In this document: piece by piece, positions 5,153 to 58,299 of the stretch
Layout of the letters: each line of letters opens with the position of its first letter
Position numbering within the stretch: position 1 is the first letter of the stretch
From: Glutamicibacter arilaitensis Re117
GTDB taxonomy: Bacteria; Actinomycetota; Actinomycetes; Actinomycetales; Micrococcaceae
Reading direction: 5' to 3'
Assembly: GCF_000197735.1 (NCBI RefSeq)
Contig: NC_014550.1
Location: 3,348,001 to 3,412,000, forward strand
Length of the DNA: 64,000 bases
Position numbers and translations under genes: made by a program
Notes under the pieces: generated by a model
Told to the model about the DNA's origin: nothing
The model's database searches: none
Seen by the model: only the letters and a program-made list of their open reading frames with translations

Positions 5153-6603
5153 GGGCTCTTCAGGATTGAGGGTGTAAACGCCGTCTAAACCCACCGGTCT
5201 CCAACAACGACCGGGCGATATAGTGCGCCAGATTCTTGAACCCCAACGCGATACCTCGCAGATGCTCCAACCTGCCATTCAAAGCCTCGGTAGGACCATT
5301 CGAACTACCAATATGATCAAAGTACGCGAGAATGTCCGTCTTCCTCCTGCGCAGGGTGCCGCCGAGCTTTTTCAGCTCCGGCAACCCTTTCGGTACCTTC
5401 GTGCCAACTTCGTTGATCAGTTGCTCCAAGGCCCACCGTCCGACCTCGGGCTTCGGTTGCCGGTAGGCATCCACCATCTTCTGATACACGCTCCAGACCA
5501 ATTGAACCGGCTCATACTCCGGCTCCTTGAACAGGTCTTCAAGCTTGGTCTTCTGCTTTTCCGTAGCCAAGGATAGTCCCGTGGTCAGCGTTCGCCTGCA
5601 CTTGTAAAGCGGGTCATCCTTGCGTCCTCGACGCCCATGTTGCTCACGTTGAATCCGTTGCCGGGTCTGGTCCAGCGCCTCGGAACCTAGTTTGACTACA
5701 TGGAATGGATCCAACACCTCCACCGCGTGGGGTAGCTCCTCGACGGCAGCTGTTTTGAAGCCGGTGAAACCGTCCATTGCGACGACTTCAATGCCCTGTT
5801 TCCATTGTTCTTCTTGATCAGCCAGCCAGGTTTTGAATACAGCTTTGGATCTTCCAGGGACCATGTCGATCAGTCGTGCGGTACCGGTGCCGTCACGCAC
5901 CGCGGTGAGGTCCACAATCACGGTGACGTATTTGTCGCCGGTTCGGGTATGCCGCCAAACATGTTCATCGACTCCCAGCACTTTGACCCCGTCGAAGCGG
6001 GTTGGATCATCAATCAGTAAGCGTTGACCTTCAGCCAGCACAGCCTCATTGGCGGTATTCCAGGTGACGCCGAGGCCTTCGGCAATTCGGGAGACTGACA
6101 AGTGGTGGCAGACCAGTCCAACCAGCGCCCAGCGTAGCCCGGTCCTGCTGATTTTCTGGCGTGGCGCTACTGCTTGGGACAGCTCTTCACGCCAGACTCG
6201 TTGGCAATTGGCGCAACGGTAGCGGCGGTGTTTGATGACTAGGACAGTGGGACGCCAGCCCAATGGTTCGTGGGCGAGGCGGCGGGTGACGGTATCGCGT
6301 GGAATGCCTGCTGCTCCGCAGGTTTGGCACCAAGGGATCGGGTTGGTGACGTGGCAGAGGATTTCGGCTTTCGCTGCGCTCAGGTGTTGCCCGATTGCGG
6401 TCAGTCCCAAGCCGTCAAGATTGGTGAAAGTGGTGAGGTCTGGTGCGGTGAAGGTAGGATTGAGCAACGTCGAGGTCTTTCGAAAATGGCTAGTGTAGTA
6501 ACTTCCATTCTTCTGGAAGACCTCGACTTTTTCGTGCTCGGCGACATGCCCGGGAATCGGGGTGTTGGTTTCAGGTGGTTACACTCTTATTCCTGAAGAG
6601 CCC
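5153..6603 (-). mobile_element. complete ISL3-family insertion sequence A
   Basis: Left end GGGCTCTTCAGGATTGAG (from 5153) and the inverted right end TTCCTGAAGAGCCC (to 6603) form about 25-bp inverted repeats. It holds one full-length transposase. The two 8-bp flanks (AGATAAAT and TTTAAGCG) do not match, so no target duplication remains; an adjacent deletion or rearrangement is likely. It ends about 23 bp beyond the stop of the Mn-type binding protein gene. Confidence 0.85.
5160..6467 (-). CDS. ISL3-family transposase A
   Basis: 435 residues, full family length. N-terminal paired CxxC zinc-binding regions (WCQTCG and YRCANCQ), then a DDE-type core (GVDEHVWRH, VVAMDGFTGFKTA, FHVVKLG) and the conserved C-terminal GPTEALNGRLEHLRG. 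Start MLNPTFTAPDL directly follows the ISL3 dyad repeat that carries the promoter. About half identical by eye to the transposases at 42.3, 49.2 and 50.7 kb, so it is a different ISL3 subtype from those. Confidence 0.93.
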   Translation of the reverse strand: MLNPTFTAPDLTTFTNLDGLGLTAIGQHLSAAKAEILCHVTNPIPWCQTCGAAGIPRDTVTRRLAHEPLGWRPTVLVIKHRRYRCANCQRVWREELSQAVAPRQKISRTGLRWALVGLVCHHLSVSRIAEGLGVTWNTANEAVLAEGQRLLIDDPTRFDGVKVLGVDEHVWRHTRTGDKYVTVIVDLTAVRDGTGTARLIDMVPGRSKAVFKTWLADQEEQWKQGIEVVAMDGFTGFKTAAVEELPHAVEVLDPFHVVKLGSEALDQTRQRIQREQHGRRGRKDDPLYKCRRTLTTGLSLATEKQKTKLEDLFKEPEYEPVQLVWSVYQKMVDAYRQPKPEVGRWALEQLINEVGTKVPKGLPELKKLGGTLRRRKTDILAYFDHIGSSNGPTEALNGRLEHLRGIALGFKNLAHYIARSLLETGGFRRRLHPQS

Positions 6604-6626
6604 TTTAAGCGAAATAGCTGGGGGCA

Positions 6627-7568
6627 TTAATTCTCACCAGTCAATGCGTCGATAATCGTTTGCGTGTCGTGACGGATCAGCTCTAAATAGGTAGGCACAG
6701 GACCGTCTTTTCCGGAGAGGGAATCCACATAGAGGGTGCCACCGAATTTGGCATCGGTGGCTTCGACGACCTGCTGCATGGGCGCGTCAGACACTGTGGA
6801 CTCGCAGAAAACTGCGGGTACTTGGTTCGTGGTGACGAATTCGATGGCAGAGGTTATCTGCTGGGGTGTTGCTTGCTGCTCCGCGTTGACGGCCCAGATG
6901 TATTTTTCGGTTAGATCGGTGTCTTTGGCAAGGTAGGAAAAAGCTCCTTCACAAGTGACGAGTGCTCGTTGGCTCTGGGGCAGATGGGAAAGTTCAGTGA
7001 CTAGCTCGTCATGCACTTCCTGTAATTCCTCTTTGTATGCTGCTGCATTACGCGCGTATTCATTGGTATTTTCAGGGTCAAGAGTGCTGAATGCCGAGGC
7101 CATGTTATCGACGTAGACCTGTACGTTTAGCGGGCTCATCCAGGCATGGGGATTAGGTTTTCCGGCATGCTCGTCTTCGGTGATATCGATTGGTTCGACA
7201 CCGTCACTGACAACAGCGTGGGGCACGTCTAAGCCCTCGACGAATTGGCCGAACCATGCTTCGAGATTCATTCCGTTATCCAGGATCAGGTCAGCTTTCG
7301 CAGCTTTGCTGATATCGCCCGGGGTGGGTTCATAGCCGTGTATTTCCGCTCCGAATTTCGTAATGGATTCGATCTGCAGGTGGTCGCCGGCGACGTTTTC
7401 AGCGATATCGGCTAGTACGGTGAATGTGGTTAGGACCACTGGTTTCTTTTCTTGAGTCGTGGCGTAATTTTGCGGGGAAGTGGTGCAGCCAGTGAGGAGG
7501 AGAGCTAGGGCTCCTGCGCTAATAGCAAGGGAAAAGCGTGGGCGGAATGAACGTGGAGATCTGGGCAT
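6627..7568 (-). CDS. Mn/Fe-type metal ABC transporter substrate-binding lipoprotein
   Basis: 313 residues, cluster A-I (TroA/PsaA/MntC/SitA) binding protein. A signal peptide ends in the lipobox LLTGC. Candidate ligands are the His in AEIHGYEP, the His in NPHAWMSP, the Glu in TCEGAFSYLA and the Asp in YVDSLSG; Glu as third ligand is typical of manganese/iron rather than zinc members. The start at 7568 follows GAAAGGCA. No cognate ATPase or permease follows: ISL3 copy A begins about 23 bp after the stop. The gene is therefore an orphan whose operon was probably cut, and it would need permeases elsewhere to act. Mn supply would be relevant to RNR function, but see the metal-free NrdF at 10652-11677. 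Confidence 0.85.
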   Translation of the reverse strand: MPRSPRSFRPRFSLAISAGALALLLTGCTTSPQNYATTQEKKPVVLTTFTVLADIAENVAGDHLQIESITKFGAEIHGYEPTPGDISKAAKADLILDNGMNLEAWFGQFVEGLDVPHAVVSDGVEPIDITEDEHAGKPNPHAWMSPLNVQVYVDNMASAFSTLDPENTNEYARNAAAYKEELQEVHDELVTELSHLPQSQRALVTCEGAFSYLAKDTDLTEKYIWAVNAEQQATPQQITSAIEFVTTNQVPAVFCESTVSDAPMQQVVEATDAKFGGTLYVDSLSGKDGPVPTYLELIRHDTQTIIDALTGEN

Positions 7569-7606
7569 AGGATTGCCTTTCGATCGTAGGTTTACGGCTG
7601 AAGAAT

Positions 7607-7876
7607 CTAGAGTGAGCTCATGAGTGATGGCGGGGTCTCAGGGGGTGGCCCTGCGCGATGTGCAGCTGAGGCGAATCGTTCTAATTTGGTCGGGTTTTCG
7701 CCGCGGCAGTAAATGCCGACTAGTCGCAGGAAGTAACGCACTACAGTTGCAGGGTCGGTGGAGGAACCCAGTAGTGACTGCGCTTCGTGGTGCTTGGACT
7801 CTTGCGCGGCGCGGAACAATGCGACGGCTTCGATCCAGAGTCCGTCGTTGGTTCGTTGTGAAGCATTATGTTGCAT
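7607..7876 (-). CDS. small hypothetical protein
   Basis: About 89 residues from MQHNASQRTN (an upstream ATG at 7960 gives 117). Predicted mainly helical (DGLWIEAVALFRAAQES, ATVVRYFLRLVGIYC) with a Pro-rich tail (HRAGPPPETPP). No strong ribosome-binding site. It lies 38 bp upstream of the metal-binding lipoprotein on the same strand and could be co-transcribed with it. Function unknown. Confidence 0.4.
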   Translation of the reverse strand: MQHNASQRTNDGLWIEAVALFRAAQESKHHEAQSLLGSSTDPATVVRYFLRLVGIYCRGENPTKLERFASAAHRAGPPPETPPSLMSSL

Positions 7877-7960
7877 GGGTAGAACTCTAATGTTCGGTAC
7901 ACCGAAGTCCAAAATACTACTTGTTAGGTCGAGGGCCTTTCTGAAGCATGGATAATGCAT

Positions 7961-8322
7961 GATTATGCAGAATGTCGGTTGTAGCCTGTGCTTGGATGTT
8001 GGTATCGCCGAGGCATTTCATGGTCGAAGTTTGAATGGTTGAGCCCATAGCCAGATGGGATCGGGGCGATCTAGGGGTGCGGTGGGGCAATACCCGTGGA
8101 GTGGCTAATCTTTCGACACATAGTTTATGAAACTGAGTTTTGCGACGAAATATCCTCGAAAATCTGTTGAGTTCTCAATCGTCGAGGATTTCCACTCAAC
8201 CTGGCGCATGACTGTGTCACAAACGACCGTTTTAGAAACTGTCGAATGGTCTTAGTGTTCCTCCCATAGAGTCAGATGTATTTAGGTAAGAGGCGGTGGT
8301 CGGTTTTGGTTTCTGGTCTGTT
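7961..8322. other. gene-free interval with possible res-like sites
   Basis: No coding region. Segments such as CGACACATAGTTTATGAAAC (8115-8134) and TGTCACAAACGACC (from 8215) resemble the arms found beside the 4.4-5.0 kb recombinase (CGACACATAGTTACGA). They may be res-type recombination subsites or transposon-end debris. This is a visual similarity only. Confidence 0.3.
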
Positions 8323-8378
8323 ATGATGATGTCATCATGATCAGCCCGCTCGCCTTATGGCTCGGGCTGATTTTCTTT
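8323..8378 (+). ncRNA. candidate abiF-associated structured RNA (two hairpins)
   Basis: Two consecutive hairpins directly upstream of the Abi gene: ATGATG-ATGT-CATCAT (8323-8338), then ATCAGCCCG ... CGGGCTGAT (8340-8371) followed by a U-rich stretch TTTCTTTAA. The gene's RBS (CAGGGAAG) and ATG follow at once. Abi_2/AbiF proteins are, to my knowledge, often preceded by a small structured RNA (abiF RNA motif). Alternatively the second hairpin is only a terminator or attenuator. Confidence 0.55.
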
Positions 8379-8391
8379 AACAGGGAAGTTC

Positions 8392-9381
8392 ATGGCTCAA
8401 TACACTAAAAAGTGGCTATCGGTAGAAGAGCAGCTCGCGAAGCTTGAGCTTAATGGTGTGCTGATTGGTGATCGTGAAGCAGGGATACAGCTACTGAGGG
8501 CTGTGGGGTATTACCGTCTGACAGGGTATTTGTATCCCTTCCGCGATTCTCATTTTGTTTATGAGGCGGATGGTCGAGAACATGTCCAGGTGTTGAGTAC
8601 CTACCGCAGGGGTACCTCGCTGGAACATGCTAGAAAACTCATTGATTTCGATCGAGCCTTGCGAATTCTGGTGTTGGATGGCATCGAGCGCATTGAAATT
8701 TCGTTGCGCATGCAACTTGGGTATGTCTTGGGTAGGAAGTCGCCATTCGCGCATCTTGACGCCACACAATTCGTTTCTTCGTTTACGACTAGCGAAGCCG
8801 AAGCCGGGGGAGTCATTCGGCCGAGTAAGCATGAAGTACTCATCACTCGGACGCGGGAACGGCAAAGTAGTTCAGATGAGTCTTTCGTGGCACATTTTCG
8901 TCAAAAGTATGATGATCAGATGCCGATTTGGGCACTTACCGAGATTATGGAGTTCGGGCATCTGAGCAGGATGTATGGCGGGCTTCAGAACTCGACAGGC
9001 ACAGAGATCGCAATGACGTATGGTGTCCCTTCCAAGAGGATCATGGCAAGCTGGATCGCGAGCCTCAACTATGTGCGTAATGTTTCCGCGCACCACGCGA
9101 GGCTCTTTAACCGAAAACTTGTCTTTGCGCCGAAGCGACCTGCGCTTGGCCAGATTCCGCTGCTGGATCATTTGAAAGAAGAGGAATCATCTAAGCAGGT
9201 CTTCGGGCTCTACAACGTAGTAGCTATCATGGCCTATCTATTGCGATCGATCGATCCCGAATGCGACTGGTCCGAAAAAATGATCGAGCTGATAAATGGC
9301 TTTCCCAGCTCTTCTAGCCTCACCGTTGACAGCCTGGGTATGCCAGCGAATTGGTCTGATTTAGCCATATGGGCGAAGTAG
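8392..9381 (+). CDS. Abi_2/AbiD/F-like abortive infection HEPN protein
   Basis: 329 residues, family-typical length. The N-terminal signature (KKWLSVEEQLAKLELNGV ... LLRAVGYYRLTGYLYPF) and mid-region (IDFDRALRILVLDGIERIEISLR) are characteristic of Pfam Abi_2. The catalytic HEPN motif R-x4-H is intact at about R229-H234 (RNVSAHH), so RNase activity is plausible. It stands alone with its upstream structured RNA (8323-8378), which may act as antitoxin or inhibitor as in AbiF-type systems. Role: phage defence by RNA cleavage (family knowledge); the trigger is unknown. Confidence 0.85.
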   Translation: MAQYTKKWLSVEEQLAKLELNGVLIGDREAGIQLLRAVGYYRLTGYLYPFRDSHFVYEADGREHVQVLSTYRRGTSLEHARKLIDFDRALRILVLDGIERIEISLRMQLGYVLGRKSPFAHLDATQFVSSFTTSEAEAGGVIRPSKHEVLITRTRERQSSSDESFVAHFRQKYDDQMPIWALTEIMEFGHLSRMYGGLQNSTGTEIAMTYGVPSKRIMASWIASLNYVRNVSAHHARLFNRKLVFAPKRPALGQIPLLDHLKEEESSKQVFGLYNVVAIMAYLLRSIDPECDWSEKMIELINGFPSSSSLTVDSLGMPANWSDLAIWAK

Positions 9382-10028: not shown

Positions 10029-10604
10029 TCAGCGGGAATCAGTGTTTTGTTCGATGAGCTGAACAAGGCGAGAGACATAGTTTTGAAGAAATTCCACTGT
10101 GGATTCCTGGGTCACATGGCCGTCTGCATCGAGAAGCGTGGGTGACTGGGAAAGAAAGACTTCTGGTTGGCCGGGAGTGGGCATGTTGAAATATGAAAGG
10201 GCCAGCCTAAGGTTCTTCTGCGAGCTGTACCCGCCCATACGCCCAACGGAGTGACTGACGATTCCCGCGGGAAGGTTTTCCCAAGCGACATCGCTGTTGG
10301 GTTTGGAACCGATGTCTATGGCATTTTTCAGGCAGGAGGGGATGGTGCGGTTGTTCTCGGGCGTGACAAAAAATATCCCGTCGGAGGATTTGATGATCTT
10401 GCGGAACAGCGCGTATTCAGGCGGGGTCGGTTTGTCGCTGACCTGGGGGTCATCGTAGTCGAAATCGTAAAGAGGGAGATCCCGGATCTCGACGATGCGT
10501 GCGTTGTAGCCTTCAGGGAAATAGTCGATAAGATTGTGGGCGATTTTTCGTGCGTAGGATCCTCGACGCAGACTGCCGACGAGGACGGAGACGTTCTTAT
10601 TCAA
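10029..10604 (-). CDS. NADPH-dependent FMN reductase-like flavoprotein
   Basis: 191 residues, flavodoxin-like NADPH-dependent FMN/quinone reductase family. The phosphate loop is GSLRRGSYARK at the N-terminus; the flavin-proximal motif is FFVTPENNRTIPSCLKNAID, and a Gly-rich loop follows (GRMGGYSSQ). It lies 47 bp after nrdF on the same strand and is probably the last gene of the RNR operon. There it may reduce flavin for NrdI or supply electrons for cofactor assembly (inference). A stand-alone oxidative-stress quinone reductase is the alternative. Confidence 0.8.
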   Translation of the reverse strand: MNKNVSVLVGSLRRGSYARKIAHNLIDYFPEGYNARIVEIRDLPLYDFDYDDPQVSDKPTPPEYALFRKIIKSSDGIFFVTPENNRTIPSCLKNAIDIGSKPNSDVAWENLPAGIVSHSVGRMGGYSSQKNLRLALSYFNMPTPGQPEVFLSQSPTLLDADGHVTQESTVEFLQNYVSRLVQLIEQNTDSR

Positions 10605-10651: not shown

Positions 10652-11677
10652 TTAGAAATCCCAGTCGTCGTCGCTGGTGTCTTCGGCTTTGCCGATGATG
10701 TAGGAAGAGCCGGACCCGGAAAAGAAGTCATGATTTTCATCCGCTCCTGGTGCGAGGGCAGCGAGGATCTCGGGGTTGACGTTTGTCTCTTCCGGTGTGA
10801 AGCGGGCTGGATAGCCAAGATTCATGAGCGCTTTGTTTGCGTTGTAGCGGACGAAGACGGCTACGTCGTCCATGAGCCCGAGCGGTTCGTAAAGCTCACC
10901 GGAGTACTGCAATTCGAGTTCATAGAGTTCTTCGAGGAGTGCATAGGTAAATTCGCGCATGTTTTCCTGCGTGGCAGGGGACTGGGTTTCGAGGCCTCGC
11001 TGGTACTTGTATCCGGAGTAGTAGCCGTGCACAGCCTTGTCGCGCAAGATCAGCCGGATCATGTCCGCGGTGTTTGTGAGTGTCGCGTGGACGGAGAAGT
11101 GCAACGGCAGATAGAACCCTGCATACAGGAGCAACGAGGAGAGCAGCGTTGAGGAGACTTTGCGCTTAAGCGGGTCATCCCCGTAATAGTGGGTAAGTAC
11201 CTTTTTACACCGTTCCTGGAGCATGTCGTTGGCAATGGCCCATCGGTAAGCGCTGTCAATCTCAGGCGTCGAGGTCAGAGTCGAAAAAACGGAGGAGTAG
11301 GAACGGGCGTGCACTGCTTGCATGAAGGCGATGTTGGTATAGACGGCTTCTTCGTGTTCTGTCTGTGAATCTTGGATCTGGCAGATTTCTCCGACGGTGG
11401 CCTGGACTGTGTCGAGCATGGTGAGCCCTGTGAATACGCGCATGGTTAGTGTTCGTTCTTCCTGGGTGAGTTTTTCCCATGCAGGAAGATCGTTGGAAAG
11501 TGGAACTTTTTCAGGGAGCCAAAAGTTGGCGGTGAGGCGGTTCCAGACTTCAAGGTCTTTATCGTCGACGACACGGTTCCAGTTGATAGGGCGTATGCGG
11601 GCGGCTGGGTTATGCCGGTAGCCTGGTGGGGTCACAGCGATCTCGGTATTCGAGTAAAGGGTGTCGTGAGAATTCAT
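10652..11677 (-). CDS. nrdF: ribonucleotide reductase small subunit NrdF, class Ie (QSK) type
   Basis: 341 residues with the usual NrdF C-terminus (GSGSSYIIGKAEDTSDDDWDF). Aligned to classical class Ib R2 the six metal-ligand positions read D89, Q120, H123, S180, K214 and H217: three glutamates (E98, E158 and E192 in E. coli NrdF numbering, constant offset 22) are Gln, Ser and Lys. The radical-site tyrosine is Y127 (ARSYSS). This Q-S-K set is the published signature of metal-free class Ie R2 proteins, which use a DOPA radical made from the tyrosine with NrdI and oxygen. So it should not bind the Mn2/Fe2 centre. It works with NrdE (downstream partner subunit) and NrdI upstream in the same operon. 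Confidence 0.93.
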   Translation of the reverse strand: MNSHDTLYSNTEIAVTPPGYRHNPAARIRPINWNRVVDDKDLEVWNRLTANFWLPEKVPLSNDLPAWEKLTQEERTLTMRVFTGLTMLDTVQATVGEICQIQDSQTEHEEAVYTNIAFMQAVHARSYSSVFSTLTSTPEIDSAYRWAIANDMLQERCKKVLTHYYGDDPLKRKVSSTLLSSLLLYAGFYLPLHFSVHATLTNTADMIRLILRDKAVHGYYSGYKYQRGLETQSPATQENMREFTYALLEELYELELQYSGELYEPLGLMDDVAVFVRYNANKALMNLGYPARFTPEETNVNPEILAALAPGADENHDFFSGSGSSYIIGKAEDTSDDDWDF

Positions 11678-11710
11678 TGTGGTTCCTTCTGGGAGATCAG
11701 AGTTTCAACG

Positions 11711-13876
11711 TTAAAGTGCGCATGAGACGCAGTTTTCGATTTCGGTGCCTTCGAGGGCGGGTTGACGCAGGCGGATGTAGTAGAGGGTTTTGATTCCGGC
11801 ACGCCAGGCGTAGATCTGCGCTTTGTTGATGTCCCGGGTGGTGGCGCTGTCGCGGAAGAATAACGTGAGTGAGAGGCCTTGGTCGACGTGGCGGGTGGCG
11901 GCGGCGTAGGTGTCGATGATCTTTTCGTAGCCGATCTCGTACGCGTCCTCGAAAAATTCGATGTTGGCGTCGGTCATGTGTGGGGCTGGGTAGTAGAGGC
12001 GGCCTAGTTTGCCTTCTTTTCGGATTTCGATCTTTGCCGCTATTGGATGGATTGATGCGGTCGCATTGTTGACATACGAGATCGATCCGGTCGGTGGGAT
12101 CGCCTGTAAATAGGCGTTGTAAATGCCGTGCGCCATGACTGACTTGCGTAGCGCCTGCCAGTCCTCACGGGTCGGGATCGCGATTCCTACTTGGCTGAAC
12201 AGTGCAGCGACTCGCTCGGTGGCAGGCAGCCAGTCTCGTTCGATGTACTTGTCGAAGTAGGAACCATCGGCGTAGGCCGAGGTCCCGAACCCGGCGAACG
12301 TCGTGCCACGTTCGATGGCGATCTGGTTTGAGACGCGTAGAGCGTGGTAGGTGACGGTGAGGAAATAGATGTCAGTGAAGTCGATGCCTTCCTCGCTGCC
12401 ATAACGAATGCGCTGCGAGGCGAGGAACCCGTGAAGGTTCATTTGGCCGAGTCCAATCGCGTGCGATGCGTTGTTCCCCGCTGCGATCGACGGCACTGCG
12501 TCGATGTCTGTCTGGTCCGAGACGCTCGTCAGCGCGCGCACGGCGGTTTCGATGGTGGCGCCGAAGTCGGGAGAGTCCATCGCAGCGGCGATGTTCAGCG
12601 AGCCGAGATTGCATGAGATGTCATTCCCGATCTTCGTGTAGCCGCCGGCGGTGTCTAGGGTCGAGGGCGTGTTAACCTGGAGGATTTCGCTGCATAGATT
12701 CGACATGTTGACATGCCCCGCGAGCGGGTTGGCGCGGTTGACGGTGTCCTCGAAGAGGACGTAGGGGTAGCCGGACTCGAACTGCAGTTCGGCGAGGGTC
12801 TTGAAGAACTCGCGGGCGCTGATCGTGGTCTTGCGGATCCGTGGGTTCGCAACCAGTTCGTCGTAATGGTCGTTTACCGACAGGTCAGATAAGGGCTTGC
12901 CGTACTCGCGCGCGACGTCGTAGGGACTGAATAGGTGCATGTCCCGGTTCTCCTTCGCGAGTTTGAAGGTGACGTCGGGGATCACGACGCCCAGGGAGAG
13001 CGTTTTGATCCGAACCTTCTCATCCGCATTCTCGCGCTTCGTGTCGAGGAACCGGAGGATATCCGGGTGGTGTGCGTGAAGGTAGACCGCGCCGGCGCCT
13101 TGGCGGGCGCCGAGCTGGTTGGCGTAGGAGAAAGAATCTTCCAGGATCTTCATGACCGGCACGACCCCGGACGCCTGGTTCTGGATCTGTTTGATCGGCG
13201 CGCCGGTCTCGCGCAGGTTCGTCAGCAGCAGGGCGACGCCGCCGCCGCGCTTGGACAGCTGCAACGCCGAGTTCACGCCCCGGCCGATGGACTCCAGGTT
13301 GTCCTCCAGCCGCAGCAGGAAGCAGGAGACCAGCTCGCCGCGTTGTGCTTTTCCGGCGTTCAAGAACGTCGGGGTTGCTGGCTGGAAACGTCCCGAGATC
13401 ATCTCGTCTGCCAGGCTGGTCGTGAGGGTTTCGTTGCCTTGCCCGAGGAATAGCGCGGTAGCGGCAACGCGTTCTCCGAAGTTCTCCAAGTACGTGGTCC
13501 CGTCGAAAGTGCGCAGGGCGTAGGAAGTGAAGAATTTGAAGGCACCGAGGAAGGTGGCAAAGCGGTGCCCGGCCATCTGTACGCGTTCGTGGAGCGAGGT
13601 CACGAAAGCGGGGTCGTAGGCGCGCAGGAACGCTTCCTCGTAGTAATTGTTGTCGATCAGCCATTCCAGCCGCCCCCATACCGAGCCGAACATCTTGGTG
13701 TTCGGGATGACGTGCTGGCGGAAGTATGCGCATGCGGCCTCGCGGTCCTTGCTGAACTGGATCGATCCATCGGGGCCGAACAGGTTCAGCTGCGCGTTCA
13801 GTGCGTGGTAGTCCTTTCGCGCCCCTATGCCCTCCGGTTGCGTGAGAGCCTGCGGGGAGTCGATGGTAGTGGTCAT
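11711..13876 (-). CDS. nrdE: ribonucleotide reductase catalytic subunit NrdE
   Basis: 721 residues, normal for class Ib/Ie R1; reduces ribonucleoside diphosphates to dNDPs. Catalytic residues are visible: C185 ([11 protein letters not shown]) and C422 (ISCNLGSLN) as the redox pair, N393/C395/E397 in MSNLCSEIL, and the C-terminal ENCVSCAL pair (C716, C719) that shuttles electrons from NrdH. It lacks the long ATP-cone of class Ia. The start overlaps the nrdI stop by 4 bp (ATGA), so the two are translationally coupled. nrdF follows after 33 bp. Confidence 0.96.
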
Positions 13877-14361
13877 GCCGTCTTCCTTTCCTCTGTGTGC
13901 TGCTGCGCCCAGAAGCGGGGCAGTCCTTCTCTGACGCGTTCGACATCGCGGTCAGTGCCGAGCAATTCGAAGCGGTACAGCTCGGGCACTTGGCACTTGG
14001 TCGAGATGATGGGGCCGGCGAGGCAGTAGTGCTCGCCGAAGTTGGTGTTGCCAGCGGTGATGACCCCGCGGATCAGTGCCCGGTTGGCAGGGTCGTTCAG
14101 GAACATGCCCACCTGCTTCGGAACTGCACCTGTGCGCTCTCCGCCGCCATAGGTCGGCACGATCAGCACGAACGGCCTATTTACCCGAAGCAGCCCCTCC
14201 TGACGGGGCCGCAGCGGGATGCGCACCGCATGCAACTGCAGCCGGTCGACGAAGCGGCTGGTGTTCTCCGACACGCTCGAAAAGTACACGAGATTCGGAG
14301 AATCAGAATCTTTGAATTCTCGTACCTCGCGGTCTAAGAATTTATTTCTTTGGGAGGTCAC
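13873..14361 (-). CDS. nrdI: NrdI flavodoxin-like RNR activation protein
   Basis: 162 residues, slightly long at the N-terminus. FMN-binding loops are [14 protein letters not shown] (phosphate), [16 protein letters not shown] and [14 protein letters not shown], all typical of NrdI. It starts with GTG behind a strong AAGGAGG site. NrdI supplies the oxidant (superoxide) for radical generation, by Mn oxidation in class Ib or by tyrosine-to-DOPA conversion in class Ie, the variant indicated here. First gene of nrdI-nrdE-nrdF; nrdH is not here but at 58065. Confidence 0.95.
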
Positions 14362-14444
14362 CTTAGTATCTCCTCCTTCACTCAGTTGATGTCGGATTGA
14401 TAAAAGCTATCGAACTAGATGTAGTGCCTAGCCGAGGCTGAGAG

Positions 14445-14458
14445 CACAACATGTTGTG
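14445..14458. promoter_or_regulatory. candidate NrdR box upstream of nrdIEF
   Basis: A perfect 14-bp palindrome CACAACATGTTGTG, flanked by G and T, about 84 bp upstream of the nrdI start. It resembles the NrdR consensus (ACAC-WATATAT-GTGT-like) in size and outer bases, though its centre is CATG. A second box at about 30-bp spacing was not found, so binding by NrdR is a hypothesis. Confidence 0.4.
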
Positions 14459-14632
14459 TCAACAACCATAACTTCGATGGGGCGAACTAACAACTTCGAT
14501 CCCTCAAGCTATGGAAATAACTGAGGTTTCGTGTCCACTTCTGGATCGCTCACTGCCTTGATGTGCACTCAATGATGAGGAACGGTCAGTGTTGGAGAAC
14601 GATTAGTTGGGAGAGTTTAGGGTCGTCATTAG

Positions 14633-15441
14633 AGCAAGCATGGCGTCTGTATTTCCGCATTAACGGGTCATGCTGAACGTTACGAGGAGCATCTGAGCGA
14701 TGGTCTTGGTTGTATTCATGGTGATCCGGACGTGTTCAAAGAGAAGATCATCGCTCACGAGTTGGAAAGCGAGAATCTGAATCGGTTGAAACTCCATTGG
14801 TGAAAGAACTTGAGGCCCAGGGCCACACGTTCGCACCGATGGAGTTTGCTGCGTTAGTGCATGAAGAATCGTCCATGTTGAGCGCGAAGCTGCAATGGGA
14901 TCTGCGCAAGGACGGGACGAACTACGTCATTGACGCGGTGTTGATATCTCAAGCGTCTGCGCGCGAGGTGGCGGCGAGTTTGGATAAGCGCGGCTACACC
15001 TATGACGTGGTGAGTGTGCAAGCGACGTTCGAGGAATCCAAGGCTGGGATCTATGGTCGCTGGCTAGAGGGCTGTGCAGCCTTTGAGCGTGGTGAAAGCC
15101 AGCTTGGAGGTCGTCCGGTGCCGTCGGATTTTGCGAACAATCTGATCACACCGGATGGTAAATTGGCGACGGAAAAATCCGAGAAGAGGCTGTCAGAGCG
15201 CGGCGAGGGAGTAGTGAGTTTCAGGCAATACCGGCGCTGTTCTGCAACGCCGGAAATTGACCAAGTGAAACATGACGGAAAGCTCATAGCACGTTGCGCG
15301 GCGGCTGCACGGCAGATATTTCCCACGGCGCATGAGGTGCCGAAAACTCTCCGACAAATGAACCGTCCTGGCGCAGATCGGGAACCGGGATCGGAGACTA
15401 ACGGCACGCCCTCCCCGTCCCCCGATATGTGCCGTAGGTGA
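14633..15441 (+). pseudogene. zeta-toxin-like protein, truncated and frameshifted
   Basis: Two adjoining frames. The first (14633-14803) reads KHGVCISALTGHAERYEE, then IHGDPDVFKEKIIAHELE; the second (from 14797) reads MEFAALVHEESSMLSAKL, then NYVIDAVLIS and RGYTYDVVSVQAT. The DPDxFK and ALVHEESS elements and the spacing match the zeta-toxin/UNG-kinase family downstream of the P-loop. The P-loop part is missing and no start precedes 14633, so it is a decayed fragment, probably from the adjacent mobilization module. The last 60 residues look unrelated. Confidence 0.6.
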
Positions 15442-16005: not shown

Positions 16006-16135
16006 CCCTGCACCCTGGTGAGGTGCAGGGCCCCGCCACGGAGGCGGAGCAAGCTATACACTTAGCACGGCTAAGTGGCTCGCATCCTTGATCTTCGATT
16101 CTGTGGATGAGACAATTGACCTGTTAGGTCAATTG
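16006..16135. other. candidate oriT with three inverted repeats
   Basis: Non-coding stretch between divergent mobilization genes with three perfect dyads: CCCTGCACC/GGTGCAGGG (16006-16030), CACTTAGC-ACG-GCTAAGTG (16059-16077) and CAATTGACC-TGTTA-GGTCAATTG (16113-16135). Clustered dyads next to mobC and the relaxase are typical of origins of transfer. The nic site cannot be assigned by eye; the third dyad may instead be a mobC operator. Confidence 0.55.
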
Positions 16136-16165
16136 GTGTTGCACTGGGCTGGAAGGTTGGTTCGC

Positions 16166-16558
16166 ATGACTCGCTTCGATTCTCGGAAGCGTCAGTCGAA
16201 CGCTGCCGGTGGCCGTTCGGTGCGCCGCGAGGTGAAGCTCACCGTTGACCAGAACTTGGCGTTGCAGGTCATGGCCGATGAGGCTGGCGTGTCGGTGGCT
16301 CGCCTTTTGGTGGAATCCACCTTGTCGCAGTCTCGTGGTGAGACTGCTGCCGAGCGCCACGAGCTGATTACCTCGTTGTTCTTGTTGCAGCGTGGTCTTG
16401 CTGCGGCGGGGAACAACATCAACCAGATCGCCAGGGCCGCGAATGCGACCGGTGAAATCAAGGGCGAGCTGCACGATTCGTTGGAGCATCTGCGGGCAAC
16501 CGTGAAACGTATTGACGAGGTCTTGGAGTCGTTGAAGATTGCGGGTGATCCAGCATGA
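16166..16558 (+). CDS. MobC-like relaxosome protein
   Basis: 130 residues from MTRFDSRKRQ. Basic N-terminus, then a ribbon-helix-helix-like segment (RREVKLTVDQNLALQVMADEAGVSVARLLVES) and the bacterial mobilization (MobC) signature near the C-terminus (RGLAAAGNNINQIARAANATGE). It would bind oriT and help the relaxase. Its stop overlaps the relaxase start (ATGA), so they are coupled. An upstream in-frame ATG (16088) lies in the dyad region and is less likely. Confidence 0.88.
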   Translation: MTRFDSRKRQSNAAGGRSVRREVKLTVDQNLALQVMADEAGVSVARLLVESTLSQSRGETAAERHELITSLFLLQRGLAAAGNNINQIARAANATGEIKGELHDSLEHLRATVKRIDEVLESLKIAGDPA

Positions 16559-18057
16559 TCCCCAACGTTACTCGCGGTGGTCGCATGGCCGGTTTGATGA
16601 ACTACCTGGTTGGCCCTGGTCGTTCCAACGAGCACGAGAACCAGCGGCTCATTGCAGGAGATGATCGCGTGACTTTCGCTTATGCTCCTGGCGCTGAATT
16701 GTCGAAGTACGATGCTTTTGAGATTGCCGAGATGCTGGATGCGCCGCGCAAGGTGCACGGTACGGAAGTGACCAAGCCGCTGTATGCGAAAGACGAAGAA
16801 TCCGGCGAGTTCTTGAAGGATGAAAACGGCAAGAAGATCCGCACCGGGTCGAAGGATGCGCACGTGTGGCATTGCTCCTTGGCTGTTGAATCCGGGTACG
16901 GCTCAGTGCCCGATGAGCAATGGGAAAAGATCGCGAAGTCCTTCGTGGAAAAGATGGGTTTCATTGATCCGGACGGCGCGAAATCCTCGCGCTGGGTTGC
17001 GGTGCATCACGGCGCATCGAAGAATGGCAACGACCATATTCACGTAGTGGTGTCGATGGTTCGCGAGGACGGAACCAAGGCGAGCACGCACAATGATTTC
17101 CACCGCGCCCAGGTCGCGTGCCGCGAGCTGGAAACAGAGTATGGATTGCCTCGATTGGAGTCCCAGGAACACGGCAAGGGTCTGGCGGGAGAGAAGCCAG
17201 CAGAGCGTGCGAGGGCCGAGCGTGGGAATAATGCTTTGTCGGATAAGTTCGAGCTGCGTCGCCGTCTGCGTGCAGCCTTGTCCACGGCGAATAGTGCCGA
17301 AGAGTATGTGCGCCATGCACAGGACTTGGGCGTGCGTGTTGCCCCGAGTTTCAAGGCCGGATCGAACAGTGAAGTGCGCGGCTATCGGGTGTCTTTGGGC
17401 GAACGCGGCAGTGATGACAAAGTGATTTGGTACGCGCCGTCAAAGCTGGATTCCACTCTTGCCTGGAATGATATTCACGCCAGGTTCGGGAACAAGGATC
17501 GCGTGGCCGGGGATGCCTATTTGGTGTCCTTGCATTCATCGAGCCAGTCCCGCGGGGATCGCAAGGCAGTAGCGCATCCGGTCAGTGCTCAGCAGTTGGA
17601 TCGGATGATGAGCCATAAGACTGGCCCGGATACGCTGGCGAACATTTACGCGCGTTTGTCGTTGCAGTTCGAGCGCGGCAGGCCAGCGACGTTCCAGCAG
17701 CTTTCAGAGTCTTACGCCCGTGCTGCCCAGGGTGGAGGCAATGTGCGCTACGCGGCAAGGCTGAACCAGCGATTCAAAGCTGGCAAAGGTTATGGCTGGG
17801 TTGCTTTGGCGAAGCAAGCTGGTCGCTTAGGCCGAGTCATGATGCAGAATCATATGGCTGCTGATCGGCCTCGTTTTGCTTCGGGTGTCGATCGCTTGAT
17901 CAACGATGCCGAGAACATTGTGAACGCGGAAATGAAACGTATCCAGGCACAGGAAGCGCAGAAAGTGGGTGCGTCGAAGGCACCGCATGTTCCGTACCGG
18001 GATTGGAACGCCGGGGCGCGTCCTGGATCGGGTACTGACCAGGGTTACGAACGATAG
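16555..18057 (+). CDS. MobA/VirD2-like relaxase
   Basis: 500 residues. The N-terminal relaxase domain (MIPNVTRGGRMAGLMNYLVGPG, typical of actinobacterial MobA/VirD2-type proteins) carries HVWHCSLA around residue 103 and the metal-binding HxH at H161/H163 (NGNDHIHVVVS) after a HHG at 151-153. It nicks oriT and pilots the strand to the T4SS. The C-terminal half is long and helical, with no clear primase or helicase motif. The gene overlaps mobC and is followed by two accessory genes in the same direction. Confidence 0.93.
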   Translation: MIPNVTRGGRMAGLMNYLVGPGRSNEHENQRLIAGDDRVTFAYAPGAELSKYDAFEIAEMLDAPRKVHGTEVTKPLYAKDEESGEFLKDENGKKIRTGSKDAHVWHCSLAVESGYGSVPDEQWEKIAKSFVEKMGFIDPDGAKSSRWVAVHHGASKNGNDHIHVVVSMVREDGTKASTHNDFHRAQVACRELETEYGLPRLESQEHGKGLAGEKPAERARAERGNNALSDKFELRRRLRAALSTANSAEEYVRHAQDLGVRVAPSFKAGSNSEVRGYRVSLGERGSDDKVIWYAPSKLDSTLAWNDIHARFGNKDRVAGDAYLVSLHSSSQSRGDRKAVAHPVSAQQLDRMMSHKTGPDTLANIYARLSLQFERGRPATFQQLSESYARAAQGGGNVRYAARLNQRFKAGKGYGWVALAKQAGRLGRVMMQNHMAADRPRFASGVDRLINDAENIVNAEMKRIQAQEAQKVGASKAPHVPYRDWNAGARPGSGTDQGYER

Positions 18058-28112: not shown

Positions 28113-29834
28113 TTAGTTCTTCAGCAGCCCCTCGTAATATCTTTGCGAGTCTCGCACATCGTCTCCATAAGGCTTGGTCGAGTAGTGCTGTAGCTCGATC
28201 AGTCCTGCCGGTAGGCCGGAGCTGGTGAGGATGGCGCGGCCCCGTGGCAATGCCGCAAGGTCGGCCACGTCCAGGATCTTTTCGCGCTGCATCGAACTGG
28301 ATACCGAGCGGCCGCTGCGAGCACTGGTGCTGGAGGAGCGTTTGAGCACGTCCCGTTCACCGATTACTTGGGTCAGGAACGGCAAGAATTTATCGTCCGA
28401 GAGTCCTGAGCCGGCAACGCGGATGTTGGCGGCGCCCCAGAGTTTGTTCATGCCTTTCTCTCCGTAGGCTTCTACGCCTTGGCTGTAGGACTGGAAGAAC
28501 GTCGAAACGACGATACCGCGTGAACCATAGTGTGAATACACGTCGGGCAGTTCGCGCCAACGCACCACGTTCGCCGCTTCATCCAACACTGCTGTGAGCG
28601 GGGTTTTCAACCGGCCCCCTGGCTGGCTGGCTGCGGTCTTTTCCGCTTCGGTCATGACGGCCATGACTAGCGCTGCGGTGATCGCACGAGCTGATCCGCC
28701 GCCTTCCTTGGAGATGAGATACAGAGTGTCGGTTCCGGTAGCCAGCTTGCGATGATCCAATTCGGGGCGATTGGCCCCATTATGGCGAATCCAGGGAATC
28801 ACCTTGTCGTAGGACAGGACGTTCACCCATGGGCGCATCGTGCCATAGACCCCGTCACGCTGCTTCGGGGTGAGCTTCTGGATCTGCTCCAGGGAGTTCG
28901 CCAGAGGCCGGTGGCCGTGGTCTTTGAGCAGGTCGCGGGCCGTGAAATCCTCGGGATCTTGCGCCCACGCGAACACGTCAGTGATCGGGCGCCGACCCGC
29001 GGCGGCGGCAAAGAACAAGTGCGAGAGCAGGCGTTTACCGTCAGATTCGAAATACGCGTCCTGTTTAGCCCCTGCGTCGGTGGCCGAGGCCAGGAACACG
29101 TCCGCGAGCTTTTCAGCAGTTTCCATATCAGTGACGAAGGAGAGCGGATTCCACCACCAGGAGGGTTCTTCTCCGATGATGCCCTGCACGTCGTGCACCC
29201 ACACAGTGCCTACGCGGGCGCGGGGGCCACGGGTCATGTCTACGATGTCGCGCTTATTCGAGGTGGCCAGCACTGGCCCGCCGGTTTCCAGGATCTGCGG
29301 GACGCACACGCAGGAGGTTTTGCCGGCGCGTGGCCCCATCAACCAGATCTGCACCCACTCATAGGAAGCAAACAAGGACTTGCGGTTGTTGACCAGCTTG
29401 GCCAGAGGCACCCCAATGCCGGCCTTGGTCGCGCCGAGGCGTTCAGCATCCGCCCGGGCCGCTGGCTCTTCCAAGGCCTTGAAGTCCTTGGCGTGGCCCA
29501 TCTCCTTGGCCAGATGATCAATGCGGGAGCTGGTGCCCCGGCTGCGCCGCCACACCACCACGAGCATCACGATGACCGCCAGCAGGAGCAACAGGCCCAG
29601 GGCGAACACAGCGATTTGCAGCCCGCCCACGGGCAGGTAGCCGCGTGATTGATCCATGAGGATCTGCACTGGATTATTCGAGGACTGAGGCACGTTCGGG
29701 TCGAGGATCGCCCCGAGAGTCCACAACAGCACACCCATGATGACTAAGGTGAGGATGCCGCCGCCGATGATCCACAGCAGTTCATCATTGGCCGGCTGAT
29801 TCTTGCGCCCAGAGCGCGGATCTGAGGAAAACAT
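28113..29834 (-). CDS. VirD4/TraG-type conjugation coupling ATPase
   Basis: 573 residues from MFSSDPRSGR, whose ATG overlaps the upstream stop (TAATG). Two N-terminal membrane helices (LLWIIGGGILTLVIMGVLLW and an Ala/Leu/Val-rich one near residue 85), then Walker A GPRAGKTS, WWWNPLSFV and Walker B TAVLDEAANV. It links the relaxosome to the secretion channel. The C-terminus is Ser-rich then ends SQRYYEGLLKN. It closes the minus-strand T4SS operon. Confidence 0.9.
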   Translation of the reverse strand: MFSSDPRSGRKNQPANDELLWIIGGGILTLVIMGVLLWTLGAILDPNVPQSSNNPVQILMDQSRGYLPVGGLQIAVFALGLLLLLAVIVMLVVVWRRSRGTSSRIDHLAKEMGHAKDFKALEEPAARADAERLGATKAGIGVPLAKLVNNRKSLFASYEWVQIWLMGPRAGKTSCVCVPQILETGGPVLATSNKRDIVDMTRGPRARVGTVWVHDVQGIIGEEPSWWWNPLSFVTDMETAEKLADVFLASATDAGAKQDAYFESDGKRLLSHLFFAAAAGRRPITDVFAWAQDPEDFTARDLLKDHGHRPLANSLEQIQKLTPKQRDGVYGTMRPWVNVLSYDKVIPWIRHNGANRPELDHRKLATGTDTLYLISKEGGGSARAITAALVMAVMTEAEKTAASQPGGRLKTPLTAVLDEAANVVRWRELPDVYSHYGSRGIVVSTFFQSYSQGVEAYGEKGMNKLWGAANIRVAGSGLSDDKFLPFLTQVIGERDVLKRSSSTSARSGRSVSSSMQREKILDVADLAALPRGRAILTSSGLPAGLIELQHYSTKPYGDDVRDSQRYYEGLLKN

Positions 29835-31447
29835 TATTTGACCATCTCCCAAGCCCGGTTGGTATCCGAAATCTCGAATTCCAGATCAGTGAGTTGCGTG
29901 ACGAATGGAGTACCGGGATTCTTGCCAACCTTCATGATGAAGTGCCCTGCACCAGGCCGGCGGGAAGCCTTATTAGTTTTCGGATCAACCACGGCTTCAC
30001 CGGTCCAGTCGGTCATCAACGCTTTTTCCTTGGAGGACAGGGCGAACACTTCTTCCAGGTTGCCCATCTCCGAAGGAGCCAACCCGCCCAGGAACACCAG
30101 GGCGGAGCGTTCCACGAACCCCCAGGCGGTGGCCGTCAGGTGTTCCTTGGATAGCCTGAGGTCGTTCATGGTGTGGGTGATCATGACCTGGCCAATGCCG
30201 CGCCCACGATTCAGGCGAGTGATGGTGTCAATGAAGTGCACCATGTCATCGCTGGCGCGCAGGATGCGCCACAGCTCGTCCATGACCAGGAAGTAGGTGC
30301 GGCGCTGCCGCTTGCCCGCAGCGGCCAAATGCTGTTCGGCCGAGACGGTGGCTGATCCGAGGTTCCAGCACAAGGACTGCACGGCAGCGACCAGAACACT
30401 ATCGTTTTCGTTCACGCCGGAAATGTCGAATACCACCGGCACACCGGGGGTGATGTGAGCATCCGAGGGCTTGGCGAACATGTCCCCATAGGCACCGGAG
30501 GGGCCGAGGTTGATCAACGCATCCAGCAGGGCTTGGAGGCGCTGGTCGTATTCGTGGTCATCATCGTAGGCCAGGACGTTTTGGCGCAGCACTTCTGGCC
30601 GGGAGCGGATGAAGTCCACCAGATCCCCGATCAACGGCGCATCCCGCAACTCTGGGTCGAGTTCGTTGATCGCCACCGACAGGCAGGTGGACTCGTGCGG
30701 TTTCAGCGGCCGGCCCAGCATCATCGAGGCGATGCCTTCCATCAGTGATCGGCGGCGGCTGATCATCTCCTGGATCGCAATGTCCCGTGCCTTCTCATTG
30801 TCAATCTCGTTCAGGCTGGCGACCAGTGGGCCTAGATCTAACGGATTGAGGTGTCCTTGGCCGGGGGAGAAGGTGATGACCTGCCCACCCAGGGCGCGGA
30901 TATGCGGCACATAATCAGGGCGTGAGTCGGCCAAGATCATTGGCACCACGCCCCAGGCTGAGAGCACGGCCAGCAGGCGGTGCACCAGCGAGGTCTTGCC
31001 TAGTCCTGGCTGGCCGAGGATGAAGGCGGAAGGGTTGGAAATGATGCCGTTAAGGAACCAGGAAATAGGATCGCCGGTCACTAGCGTGTTGCGCAGCAGA
31101 TGGCGGCCCAGAGGTGCGCCAATGGTCGGTAATCCGGCGCCGTTGACGAAGGGCCAGAACCCGCACACCTGCACCGCTGAACCTTGAATCTCGACCGGGT
31201 TTTCGATGTAGTTCACCGGCCCGCCGCCACGGCGGTTCCACCCTGCATCGCCTGGAACATAGCGCGATTGGGCGCCCTCAGCCAGCAGTCGGGAAAGCAA
31301 GCCTGGTTCTTTGGCTGGTTTGGGTGCTGCCTTCTTCGCAGAGCGTTCCAAACGGGCCACGTCGCGCTTGGATAGCGTGAGGCTGTGGGACTGGGCCAGA
31401 TCCTCAGGGTTAGGCTGCTGGCGCTTCTTCTGGATTAGCGGAGTCAT
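29834..31447 (-). CDS. VirB4/TraE-like conjugation ATPase
   Basis: 537 residues from MTPLIQKKRQ (ATG overlapping the previous stop as TAATG). The P-loop is GQPGLGKTSLVHR near residue 165; a VirB4-type Walker B follows (RTYFLVMDELWRIL), then a typical QVMITHTMNDLR segment. It energises pilus/channel assembly and transfer. It is tightly coupled to the VirD4-like gene downstream and the SCO6880-like gene upstream. Confidence 0.88.
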   Translation of the reverse strand: MTPLIQKKRQQPNPEDLAQSHSLTLSKRDVARLERSAKKAAPKPAKEPGLLSRLLAEGAQSRYVPGDAGWNRRGGGPVNYIENPVEIQGSAVQVCGFWPFVNGAGLPTIGAPLGRHLLRNTLVTGDPISWFLNGIISNPSAFILGQPGLGKTSLVHRLLAVLSAWGVVPMILADSRPDYVPHIRALGGQVITFSPGQGHLNPLDLGPLVASLNEIDNEKARDIAIQEMISRRRSLMEGIASMMLGRPLKPHESTCLSVAINELDPELRDAPLIGDLVDFIRSRPEVLRQNVLAYDDDHEYDQRLQALLDALINLGPSGAYGDMFAKPSDAHITPGVPVVFDISGVNENDSVLVAAVQSLCWNLGSATVSAEQHLAAAGKRQRRTYFLVMDELWRILRASDDMVHFIDTITRLNRGRGIGQVMITHTMNDLRLSKEHLTATAWGFVERSALVFLGGLAPSEMGNLEEVFALSSKEKALMTDWTGEAVVDPKTNKASRRPGAGHFIMKVGKNPGTPFVTQLTDLEFEISDTNRAWEMVK

Positions 31448-46475: not shown

Positions 46476-46482
46476 CCCTTAA

Positions 46483-46499
46483 CTCTACATCATGTAGAG
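46483..46499. promoter_or_regulatory. operator-like dyad before the importer operon
   Basis: CTCTACAT-C-ATGTAGAG, a perfect 8-bp inverted repeat with one central base. It overlaps the stop of the HMA-DJ-1 gene and sits 8-24 bp upstream of the binding protein start. The TACA...TGTA form resembles BlaI/MecI/CopY-class operators, which often control copper or beta-lactam genes. No such regulator is encoded in the cargo. Confidence 0.55.
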
Positions 46500-57067: not shown

Positions 57068-57095
57068 AACACCCGCGTACCTAGTACCGGATTCT

Positions 57096-58064: not shown

Positions 58065-58289
58065 ATGAAAACGCCCGTAATCGTCTACAGTAAGCCTTCT
58101 TGCGTCCAGTGCAACGCCACCTACAGGGCGCTAGACAAAAAGGGAATCCCGTACGAGATGATCGACATCAGCCAGGATGTGGAAGCGCTCGAATATGTTC
58201 GCTCATTGGGCTACACGCAAGCCCCTGTTGTGGTCACAGATCGAGATCATTGGTCAGGTTTCCGGCCGGATAAGATCGACGTTCTCTAA
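58065..58289 (+). CDS. nrdH: NrdH-redoxin (glutaredoxin-like electron donor of RNR)
   Basis: 74 residues. CVQC active site at C13/C16 (SKPSCVQCNATYRALDKKG) and the NrdH hallmark WSGFRPDKI near the C-terminus. Reduces the C-terminal Cys pair of NrdE with thioredoxin reductase. It is separated from nrdIEF by 44 kb and lies next to the partition genes, an unusual position; RBS AGGAGG. Confidence 0.95.
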   Translation: MKTPVIVYSKPSCVQCNATYRALDKKGIPYEMIDISQDVEALEYVRSLGYTQAPVVVTDRDHWSGFRPDKIDVL

Positions 58290-58299
58290 GCGGGTTTTC

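Follow-up and report, generated by a model that had tools for sequence, protein, structure and literature searches.

Organization of the RNR locus

The subject of this analysis is a ribonucleotide reductase (RNR) operon of Glutamicibacter arilaitensis Re117, located in a 64,000-bp stretch of the chromosome (positions 3348001-3412000 in a contig of 3.86 Mb) that is referred to below as the window. The operon is composed of four intact open reading frames (ORFs) on the minus strand, encoding (i) NrdI, a flavodoxin-like activase (13873..14361, GTG start), (ii) NrdE, an R1 subunit of the class Ib/Ie type (11711..13876), (iii) NrdF, an R2 subunit assigned below to class Ie, QSK type (10652..11677), and (iv) an FMN reductase of a QSK-associated subfamily, marked by a TxENN motif (10029..10604, TTG start). 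The reading frames of nrdI and nrdE overlap, and a gap of 47 bases separates nrdF from the reductase gene. NrdI and R1, the partners needed by a class Ie R2, are thus both encoded within the operon.

All four predicted proteins exceed the Pfam cut-offs: NrdI that of PF07972 (155.7 bits; 156.5 bits with TIGR00333, cut-off 74.65), NrdE those of PF02867 (523 bits), PF08343 and PF00317 (TIGR04170, 1148 bits), NrdF that of PF00268, and the reductase that of PF03358 (99.6 bits, cut-off 24). NrdE contains the motifs SCFLL (184), NLCSE (393), SCNLGS (421), LYYIR (698) and SCAL (718), which we presume to be of catalytic significance. The initial annotation had described an operon of NrdI, NrdE, NrdF and a flavin reductase; the frames and domain matches bear out this gene content, with the correction that the reductase gene lies outside the interval 10652-14361 given for it.

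An nrdH gene had also been placed on the same element. We located an nrdH-like gene for a glutaredoxin (CVQC) at 58065..58286 on the plus strand, 44 kb from the operon. It is flanked on both sides by a direct repeat of 358 bp (99.4% identity; 57092-57449 and 58297-58653). A second, class Ib set (nrdF, nrdE, nrdI, nrdH) is present in the same genome at C3:2.02 Mb.

Assignment of NrdF to class Ie

The best match of NrdF in the PDB, found with phmmer, was 8rag/8rah (E 3e-159), in which residues 14-341 of the query align with residues 37-364 over 328 positions without a gap. The paper on this structure (PMC11846895) names residues D112, Q143, H146, Y150, S203, K237 and H240, onto which D89, Q120, H123, Y127, S180, K214 and H217 of the window protein are mapped by a constant offset of 23. 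The three metal-ligand Glu columns of class Ib are therefore occupied by Gln, Ser and Lys (Q120, S180, K214), while the Asp, the two His and the radical Tyr are kept (D89, H123, H217, Y127). The match to Escherichia coli NrdF (3n37; query 26-341 on 4-319) is consistent with the offset of 22 used in the initial annotation, whose placement of the ligand residues and of Y127 is confirmed by the ungapped alignment and by a column check of 103 aligned NrdF rows: Q120, S180 and K214 fall on the ligand columns.

Those 103 rows comprise 46 with the set DQHYSKH (two of which are the window's own protein) and 57 with DEHYEEH, with no intermediates. In a maximum-likelihood tree of 40 QSK and 43 class Ib rows, the two groups were separated with 100/100 support and the window NrdF fell on the QSK side. 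The ligand residues, the match to a QSK protein of solved structure and the position in this clade agree with the class proposed in the initial annotation, and support the assignment of the predicted NrdF to the QSK variant of class Ie, an already known kind of RNR that was described by John et al. 2025 (PMC11846895) and of which 275 sequences have been published. According to that study, the R2 of Gardnerella contains only trace metal, 3,4-dihydroxyphenylalanine (DOPA) is present, turnover requires reduced NrdI, and superoxide is the likely oxidant. Its authors had no protocol to replenish reduced NrdI, which possibly limited their assay.

We also considered that the operon might be an ordinary or dead class Ib copy whose ligands have drifted, since a normal class Ib enzyme is kept in the genome and a second copy could be dispensable. 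The occurrence of the exact QSK set in 44 other rows, the fully supported clade, the intactness of all frames and the activity of the solved homologue (PMC11846895) make this most improbable.

A decayed gene was observed elsewhere: locus L144 holds, at 8325-9305, a second QSK-like nrdF that reads DQHHYEH and has suffered in-frame losses. Its neighbour is an intact gene for the FMN reductase, and the other QSK nrdF of that genome is intact. In Bifidobacterium choladohabitans and B. mellis (L048, L049), a QSK nrdI-nrdF pair lies immediately ahead of a class Ib nrdI-nrdE-nrdF set.

An operator-like palindrome upstream of nrdI

Reading of the sequences ahead of nrdI revealed a palindrome of the type AGTTCG-N6-CGAACT, in which two six-base arms are separated by six bases. 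In the window it is present as AGTTCG-CCCCAT-CGAAGT on the minus strand (14471..14488). Two NrdR-like boxes, also on the minus strand, sit between the palindrome and nrdI. The first, ACACAACATGTTGTGC (14444..14459), matches the NrdR consensus at 13 of 16 positions; the second (14412..14427), read from the sequence, is weaker and is spaced 32 bp from the first, start to start. Among the upstream regions, 9 of 49 from QSK and 5 of 39 from class Ib operons reached a score of at least 13 against this consensus, as did 0.2% of mononucleotide shuffles. A sigma-70 promoter scan yielded one site with 2.1 expected.

The palindrome was scored with hand-set weights. Within 300 bases upstream of nrdI, a score of at least 10 was reached in 41 of 47 non-bifidobacterial QSK regions, near-copies included (1.6 in shuffles), compared with 1 of 38 class Ib regions (0.75 expected); the scoring QSK regions hold 31 distinct site sequences. 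A span of 300 bases can miss the promoter in nrdHIEF operons, hence the count was repeated with 900 bases, giving 42/47 and 3/38, respectively. The following loci are outside the 47: L160 (only 36 bases upstream at a contig edge, score 6.35), L144 (decayed), the near-copies L123, L131, L136 and L137, and L021, L042, L050, L057 and L059, which are without a scored nrdI.

The sole fair test of the operator is provided by held-out loci, because the weights had been set on most of the other sites. Among eight held-out non-bifidobacterial QSK loci, which have at most 14 25-mers in common with the loci behind the weights, seven reached a score of 10, with one site common to L132 and L133. This set leaves out the near-copies L123, L131, L136 and L137 and the bifidobacterial loci L139-L143, none of which reached 10.

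In the genome of the window, about 178 kb was scanned, and eight places scored at least 11. Four of these are (i) the nrdI promoter, (ii) the promoter region of a manganese-transporter gene copy in the window, where the palindrome reads ACTTCGGTGTACCGAACA (7891..7908, minus strand), (iii) the parent operon of this copy (C3:3417680) and (iv) a second MntABC-like operon (C3:3103552). In the parent operon and its copy the box is situated 323 bases ahead of the transporter gene, directly before a short open frame; at C3:3103552 it lies 94 bases before the gene, and an MntR-like gene is found a few kb away. MntR-type proteins are encoded in this genome at C3:3098996 and C3:1366725. The remaining four places are unexplained, and two of them (L182, L187) are in stretches picked from pattern hits. 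Counted over the whole genome, the pattern was no commoner than its reversed control (197 vs 264).

Other motifs were also tried. A general palindrome scan returned no single motif. The site of Corynebacterium amycolatum (L044), TGTTCAATCCCTTGAACA, fits what we take to be the Corynebacterium MntR box, a motif that was not found in the literature searched. In its strict form this box was found, as a perfect 14/14 match, in C. amycolatum only; the broader 6-6-6 palindrome was examined for that reason. An operator common to the nrdI promoter and to the manganese-uptake operons of the same genome, whose transporters are assigned to manganese by homology, points to a putative operator of the MntR type.

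Manganese-related genes around QSK operons

Neighbourhoods were compared by clustering the ORFs found in 59 stretches on the QSK side and in 41 class Ib loci; the QSK side includes some stretches with the FMN reductase gene and no QSK nrdF, as well as some from the same genome. Four groups of genes occurred on the QSK side and never at class Ib loci: DtxR-family regulators (16/0), ZnuA-type (manganese-type) substrate-binding proteins (12/0), ABC-3 permeases (8/0) and GTP-dependent phosphoenolpyruvate carboxykinase (PEPCK; 12/0).

The substrate-binding protein of the window (6627..7568, minus strand; PF01297, 274.9 bits) is one of the 12. It resembles MntC/YfeA-like proteins of Mn/Fe ABC transporters and is encoded by a copy lacking the ATPase and permease genes. 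NF053703 and other manganese models rank best for this protein, yet below their own cut-offs, and its homologue in L028 is nearest to the solved MntC proteins and YfeA. The copy extends over 1630 bp (6603-8232), promoter box included, and is 99.8% identical to G000:C3:3417356-3418985, about 61 kb away, where the operon is complete. A gene for an ISL3-family transposase (5160..6467, minus strand; PF01610) lies beside it.

PEPCK genes are found near the QSK nrdI, mostly in divergent orientation and with the same operator, in L022, L023, L024, L025, L027, L033, L045, L152 and L153. The box was detected within 300 bases upstream of 9 of the 12 linked PEPCK genes, mostly in a shared divergent promoter. 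The linked PEPCK might be a manganese-independent isozyme used at low manganese; a manganese-independent aldolase reported from Staphylococcus aureus may be compared.

The initial annotation had connected the operon with starvation for Mn or Fe. The operator and the linkage to MntR-like regulators and manganese transporters narrow this idea to manganese. We weighed an iron-starvation cassette under DtxR/IdeR control, comparable to the iron-uptake islands known from actinobacteria of cheese, and consider it unlikely. A FecCD-type iron-siderophore ABC transporter is indeed encoded in the same window, and an iron island has been described in cheese Glutamicibacter (PMC5526665). The box is common to manganese-type transporters, and in none of 49 upstream regions was there a site with three or fewer mismatches to the DtxR consensus. 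Of four linked regulators tested, three score clearly better with an MntR model than with the DtxR model, all of them below the curated cut-offs; for the second regulator of L161 the DtxR model is slightly ahead. The solved relatives of the first linked regulator are the metal-dependent regulator 5zr4, followed by 8pvt, named as a putative iron-dependent repressor, with SloR/ScaR lower.

Two further observations concern metal-related genes. In L183 (975-3663), a PepSY_TM (PiuB-like) gene and a gene for a Dyp-type peroxidase are located near a complete manganese-transporter operon; piuB is also under MntR in Corynebacterium diphtheriae (PMC13001254). At 43617-47458, the window contains a siderophore-type ABC transporter (ATPase, FecCD permease and binding protein) and a DJ-1/HMA protein between transposases of the ISL3 and IS3 types, an arrangement resembling a composite iron-uptake transposon.

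Lateral origin and mobility

In the tree, the nearest rows to the window NrdF are those of Mycetocola reblochoni (95% identity, 331 columns) and Leucobacter, which belong to another family (fork support 94/68). Among 18 genomes of the same genus, only two (G000 and G009) contain an NrdF match of at least 79%. These two observations, together with the additional class Ib nrdF in the genome, support a lateral origin of the QSK operon, as judged from sequence comparison.

The surrounding region contains genes typical of mobilization: a MobC/NikA-like relaxosome protein (16088..16558, plus strand; PF05713), a MobA/VirD2-type relaxase (16555..18057, plus strand; PF03432), in a region with 83% DNA identity to a mobilizable plasmid typed as MOBP, and a TraG/TraD-type coupling protein (28113..29852, minus strand; PF12696, PF02534). 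Proteins of the DUF4913, AAA and SLT/M23 types are encoded there as well. The stretches holding these genes are 83-88% identical to plasmids of Arthrobacter sp. YC-RL1 and Glutamicibacter protophormiae, extending over 12-13 kb in one of them. Genes for a resolvase and for transposases of the ISL3 and IS3 types are dispersed over the region. It is probable that the transfer was plasmid-borne. Of the conjugative element originally postulated, the relaxase, MobC and coupling protein near the cargo are in place; the window itself is chromosomal.

The idea that known plasmids carry the QSK operon was not borne out by the searches. The best tblastn match among 493 PLSDB records was 66%, and the two that were examined (H1, H3) are class Ib (DEHYEEH); plasmid searches with 24-25 kb pieces of the window matched the mobilization backbone and no QSK operon. 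A DNA search with the operon gave matches of 60-80% only.

Defence- or toxin-like genes are located near the operon (8392-9381, 14797-15441, 41452-42225, 61072-63915 and 20819-27382). Their products are of the Abi_2, Zeta-toxin-like, ApeA-like and Type ISP restriction enzyme types, and include an RHS/DUF6531 protein of 2187 amino acids (aa).

The FMN reductase and its association with QSK operons

The product of the fourth gene is a member of the NADPH-dependent FMN reductase family (PF03358) with a flavodoxin-like fold. An AlphaFold model built with eight sequences (pLDDT 73, pTM 0.74) has FerB/ChrR as its nearest folds in Foldseek (E 5e-11). The subfamily is characterized by the signature T(P/A/S)ENN(R/H)T(I/V)P plus SHS(V/I)GxxGGYSxxKNL, which is also kept in members encoded away from nrdF, and 100 positions are invariant among eight aligned members from seven genera. 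The TPEYN..KNAIDW.SRP-type motif, a common PF03358 feature and not a formal requirement, was not found in the window protein, where TxENN and D(I/V) stand in its place; five paralogues instead carry a TPEYN or APEYN type with DW. The genome's own FMN reductase paralogues show 34-35% identity.

A scan of named genomes, in which the best 80 of 589 loci were kept, comprised 39 QSK (L021-L059) and 41 class Ib (L060-L100) loci. With a threshold of more than 150 bits and flanks of limited length, an orthologue of the reductase was detected at 18/39 QSK loci and 0/41 class Ib loci; the latter hold just three paralogues, with 53-73 bits. L026 was counted as lacking the gene and is taken to be the same contig as L151, where it is located 8.3 kb from nrdF. 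The gene is situated directly after nrdF or within ~400 bases in 14 loci, before nrdF in two loci of Actinotignum, and farther away in two. There is no nrdI beside nrdF in Actinotignum; a role of the reductase as an NrdI substitute was ruled out, as both genomes have NrdI elsewhere. In Brevibacterium and similar loci (L028, L029, L030, L161, L144), the reductase gene adjoins one for a truncated alanyl-tRNA-synthetase-like protein of about 490-525 aa.

A sample of 396 genomes of the order was also examined. With an NrdF match at E 1e-150 or better taken as a QSK call, 36 were QSK genomes (30 residue-checked, six by score only), and 13 contained the reductase, at 65-99% identity. It occurred in 10 of the 36 QSK genomes vs 3 of the 360 others. 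The corresponding Fisher p values, by genome (10/26/3/357; 2.6e-9) and by genus (7/4/3/95; 1.2e-6), are indicative only, because the genomes are not independent. A phylum sample (396 genomes, partly the same) held no second QSK genome, and the window's genome was the only one with either protein.

To our knowledge, what reduces NrdI in class Ib/Ie systems is a largely open question, and the encoded reductase is a candidate for the missing reductant, not an obligatory one. The term "flavin reductase" does not occur in the main text of the QSK paper (PMC11846895), and no paper was found in the open literature, supplements excepted, that brings a flavin reductase together with NrdI and a ribonucleotide reductase of class Ie.

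The enzyme might instead serve the radical residue, by returning over-oxidized DOPA-quinone in R2 to DOPA. FerB/ChrR-like enzymes reduce quinones; the closest solved relatives of the window reductase are FerB and ChrR-type proteins, and it is in class Ie that the R2 cofactor is a catechol. The residue is presumably buried in R2 by the ligand site, which makes direct access by a flavin difficult to envisage, and the gene is kept in three genomes with class Ib only. We regard this role as quite improbable.

Proposed role of the operon

Taken together, the operator, the neighbourhood and the tree make it reasonably probable that the nrdI-nrdE-nrdF-FMN reductase cassette is a laterally acquired class Ie (QSK) system, which replaces the chromosomal dimanganese class Ib enzyme during manganese starvation. 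Falling manganese would release a DtxR-family repressor of the MntR type from the operator, and the operon would be transcribed, with NrdR retaining control by deoxynucleoside triphosphate (dNTP) levels through the tandem NrdR-like boxes. Electrons could pass from NAD(P)H via the FMN reductase to NrdI; reduced NrdI and O2 would yield superoxide, Y127 would be converted to DOPA, and the resulting radical would be used by NrdE, which would reduce ribonucleotides while the dimanganese enzyme is short of metal. The system would benefit from having its own reductase, given that the QSK protein studied so far contained no radical after purification and needed fresh reduced NrdI (PMC11846895).

More tentatively, and with appreciable doubt, we propose that the TxENN-type enzyme, hitherto undescribed, serves QSK RNRs as their dedicated NAD(P)H:NrdI reductase. 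It would travel with NrdI, R1 and R2 in a module under MntR control, which in some cases includes a replacement PEPCK and would allow a recipient to synthesize DNA without Mn or Fe.

Several observations weigh against these proposals. Concerning the operator, the weights were set by hand after most sites had been seen; none of 13 bifidobacterial QSK operons has the box within 300 bases of nrdI (five within 900 bases, 1.1 expected, in two site families, none in Gardnerella); only 4 of 12 substrate-binding protein genes and 1 of 18 regulator genes have it within 300 bases; and the four DtxR-family regulators of the genome leave the operator binder ambiguous. Concerning the reductase, the gene is below threshold in 26 of the 36 QSK genomes of the order sample (a single family, presumably Bifidobacteriaceae, accounts for 12 of these 26), the three reductase-bearing genomes without QSK have class Ib NrdF only (DEHYEEH), copies away from nrdF are without the operator (best score 9.5 or less), the Gardnerella enzyme is active in vitro without it (PMC11846895), and the co-occurrence may stem from joint transfer.

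Some of these points would also suit a passenger, i.e. an oxidative- or metal-stress flavoenzyme that moved along with the RNR in shared transfer units, as would the genomes in which the gene is distant from the intact nrdF (far apart in G398, on separate contigs in G266, and beside the decayed nrdF, not the intact one, in G080). Passive linkage of this kind is harder to reconcile with the varied positions of the gene (after nrdF, directly before nrdF in Actinotignum, beyond PEPCK) over nine genera of the named scan, with the seven changes of the linkage label on the NrdF tree, at least three of them forced by well supported branches, and with the rarity of the subfamily in genomes without QSK (3/360 and 0/395, in overlapping samples). 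We consider a mere passenger somewhat doubtful.

The RNR is of a known kind; what is new is the reductase subfamily linked to the operon, along with the conservation of the operator. With a candidate reductase linked to the operon, the question of what reduces NrdI becomes directly testable. The shared operator and the linkage to MntR-like and manganese-transporter genes suggest manganese starvation as the trigger of class Ie in several families of actinobacteria. Transfer of the trait from host to host is suggested by its plasmid-like surroundings.

Comparison with known systems

The closest characterized system is the QSK RNR of Gardnerella vaginalis (Bifidobacterium vaginale; 8RAG/8RAH), which has the same substitutions, the same retained Asp, His, His and Tyr residues, and NrdI and NrdE encoded together. 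The Gardnerella operon is nrdHIEF (PMC11846895), whereas in the window nrdH lies at a distance of 44 kb and nrdF is followed by an FMN reductase gene; an additional class Ib set exists in the genome. In the three Gardnerella loci (L054-L056), no flavin reductase was found in the available flanks, and no box scoring at least 10 was present within 900 bases of nrdI.

In its regulation, the operon may be likened to nrdI-nrdF2 of C. diphtheriae (DIP1923-1924), an operon listed as MntR-regulated beside mntABCD (PMC13001254, Table 3, and its reference 36). The likeness concerns regulation and not the QSK residues: the accessible text of PMC13001254 states no class for NrdF2 and mentions no flavin reductase.

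The genomic setting is reminiscent of the RUSTI and BreLI islands of cheese bacteria, large mobile islands of Glutamicibacter and Brevibacterium, with metal uptake genes in RUSTI. RNR cargo was not found in the accessible texts of their papers (PMC5526665, PMC6579920); the integration site described for BreLI is the 3′ terminus of a class Ib R2 gene.

The reductase shares its family (PF03358), fold and GSLR motif with FerB (3u7r) and ChrR/YieF (3svl), and is about 28-31% identical to the nearest solved members. Unlike the FMN_red paralogues, it carries TxENN..D(I/V)xSxP and SHSxG.xGGYS..KNL instead of the TPEYN-type motif. In function it may resemble the NrdI-reducing flavodoxin reductases of Bacillus cereus, which raise the NrdI-dependent radical yield and were found by screening of candidates for class Ib (PMC8463856); the candidate of the window is an operon-encoded FMN reductase with a flavodoxin fold.

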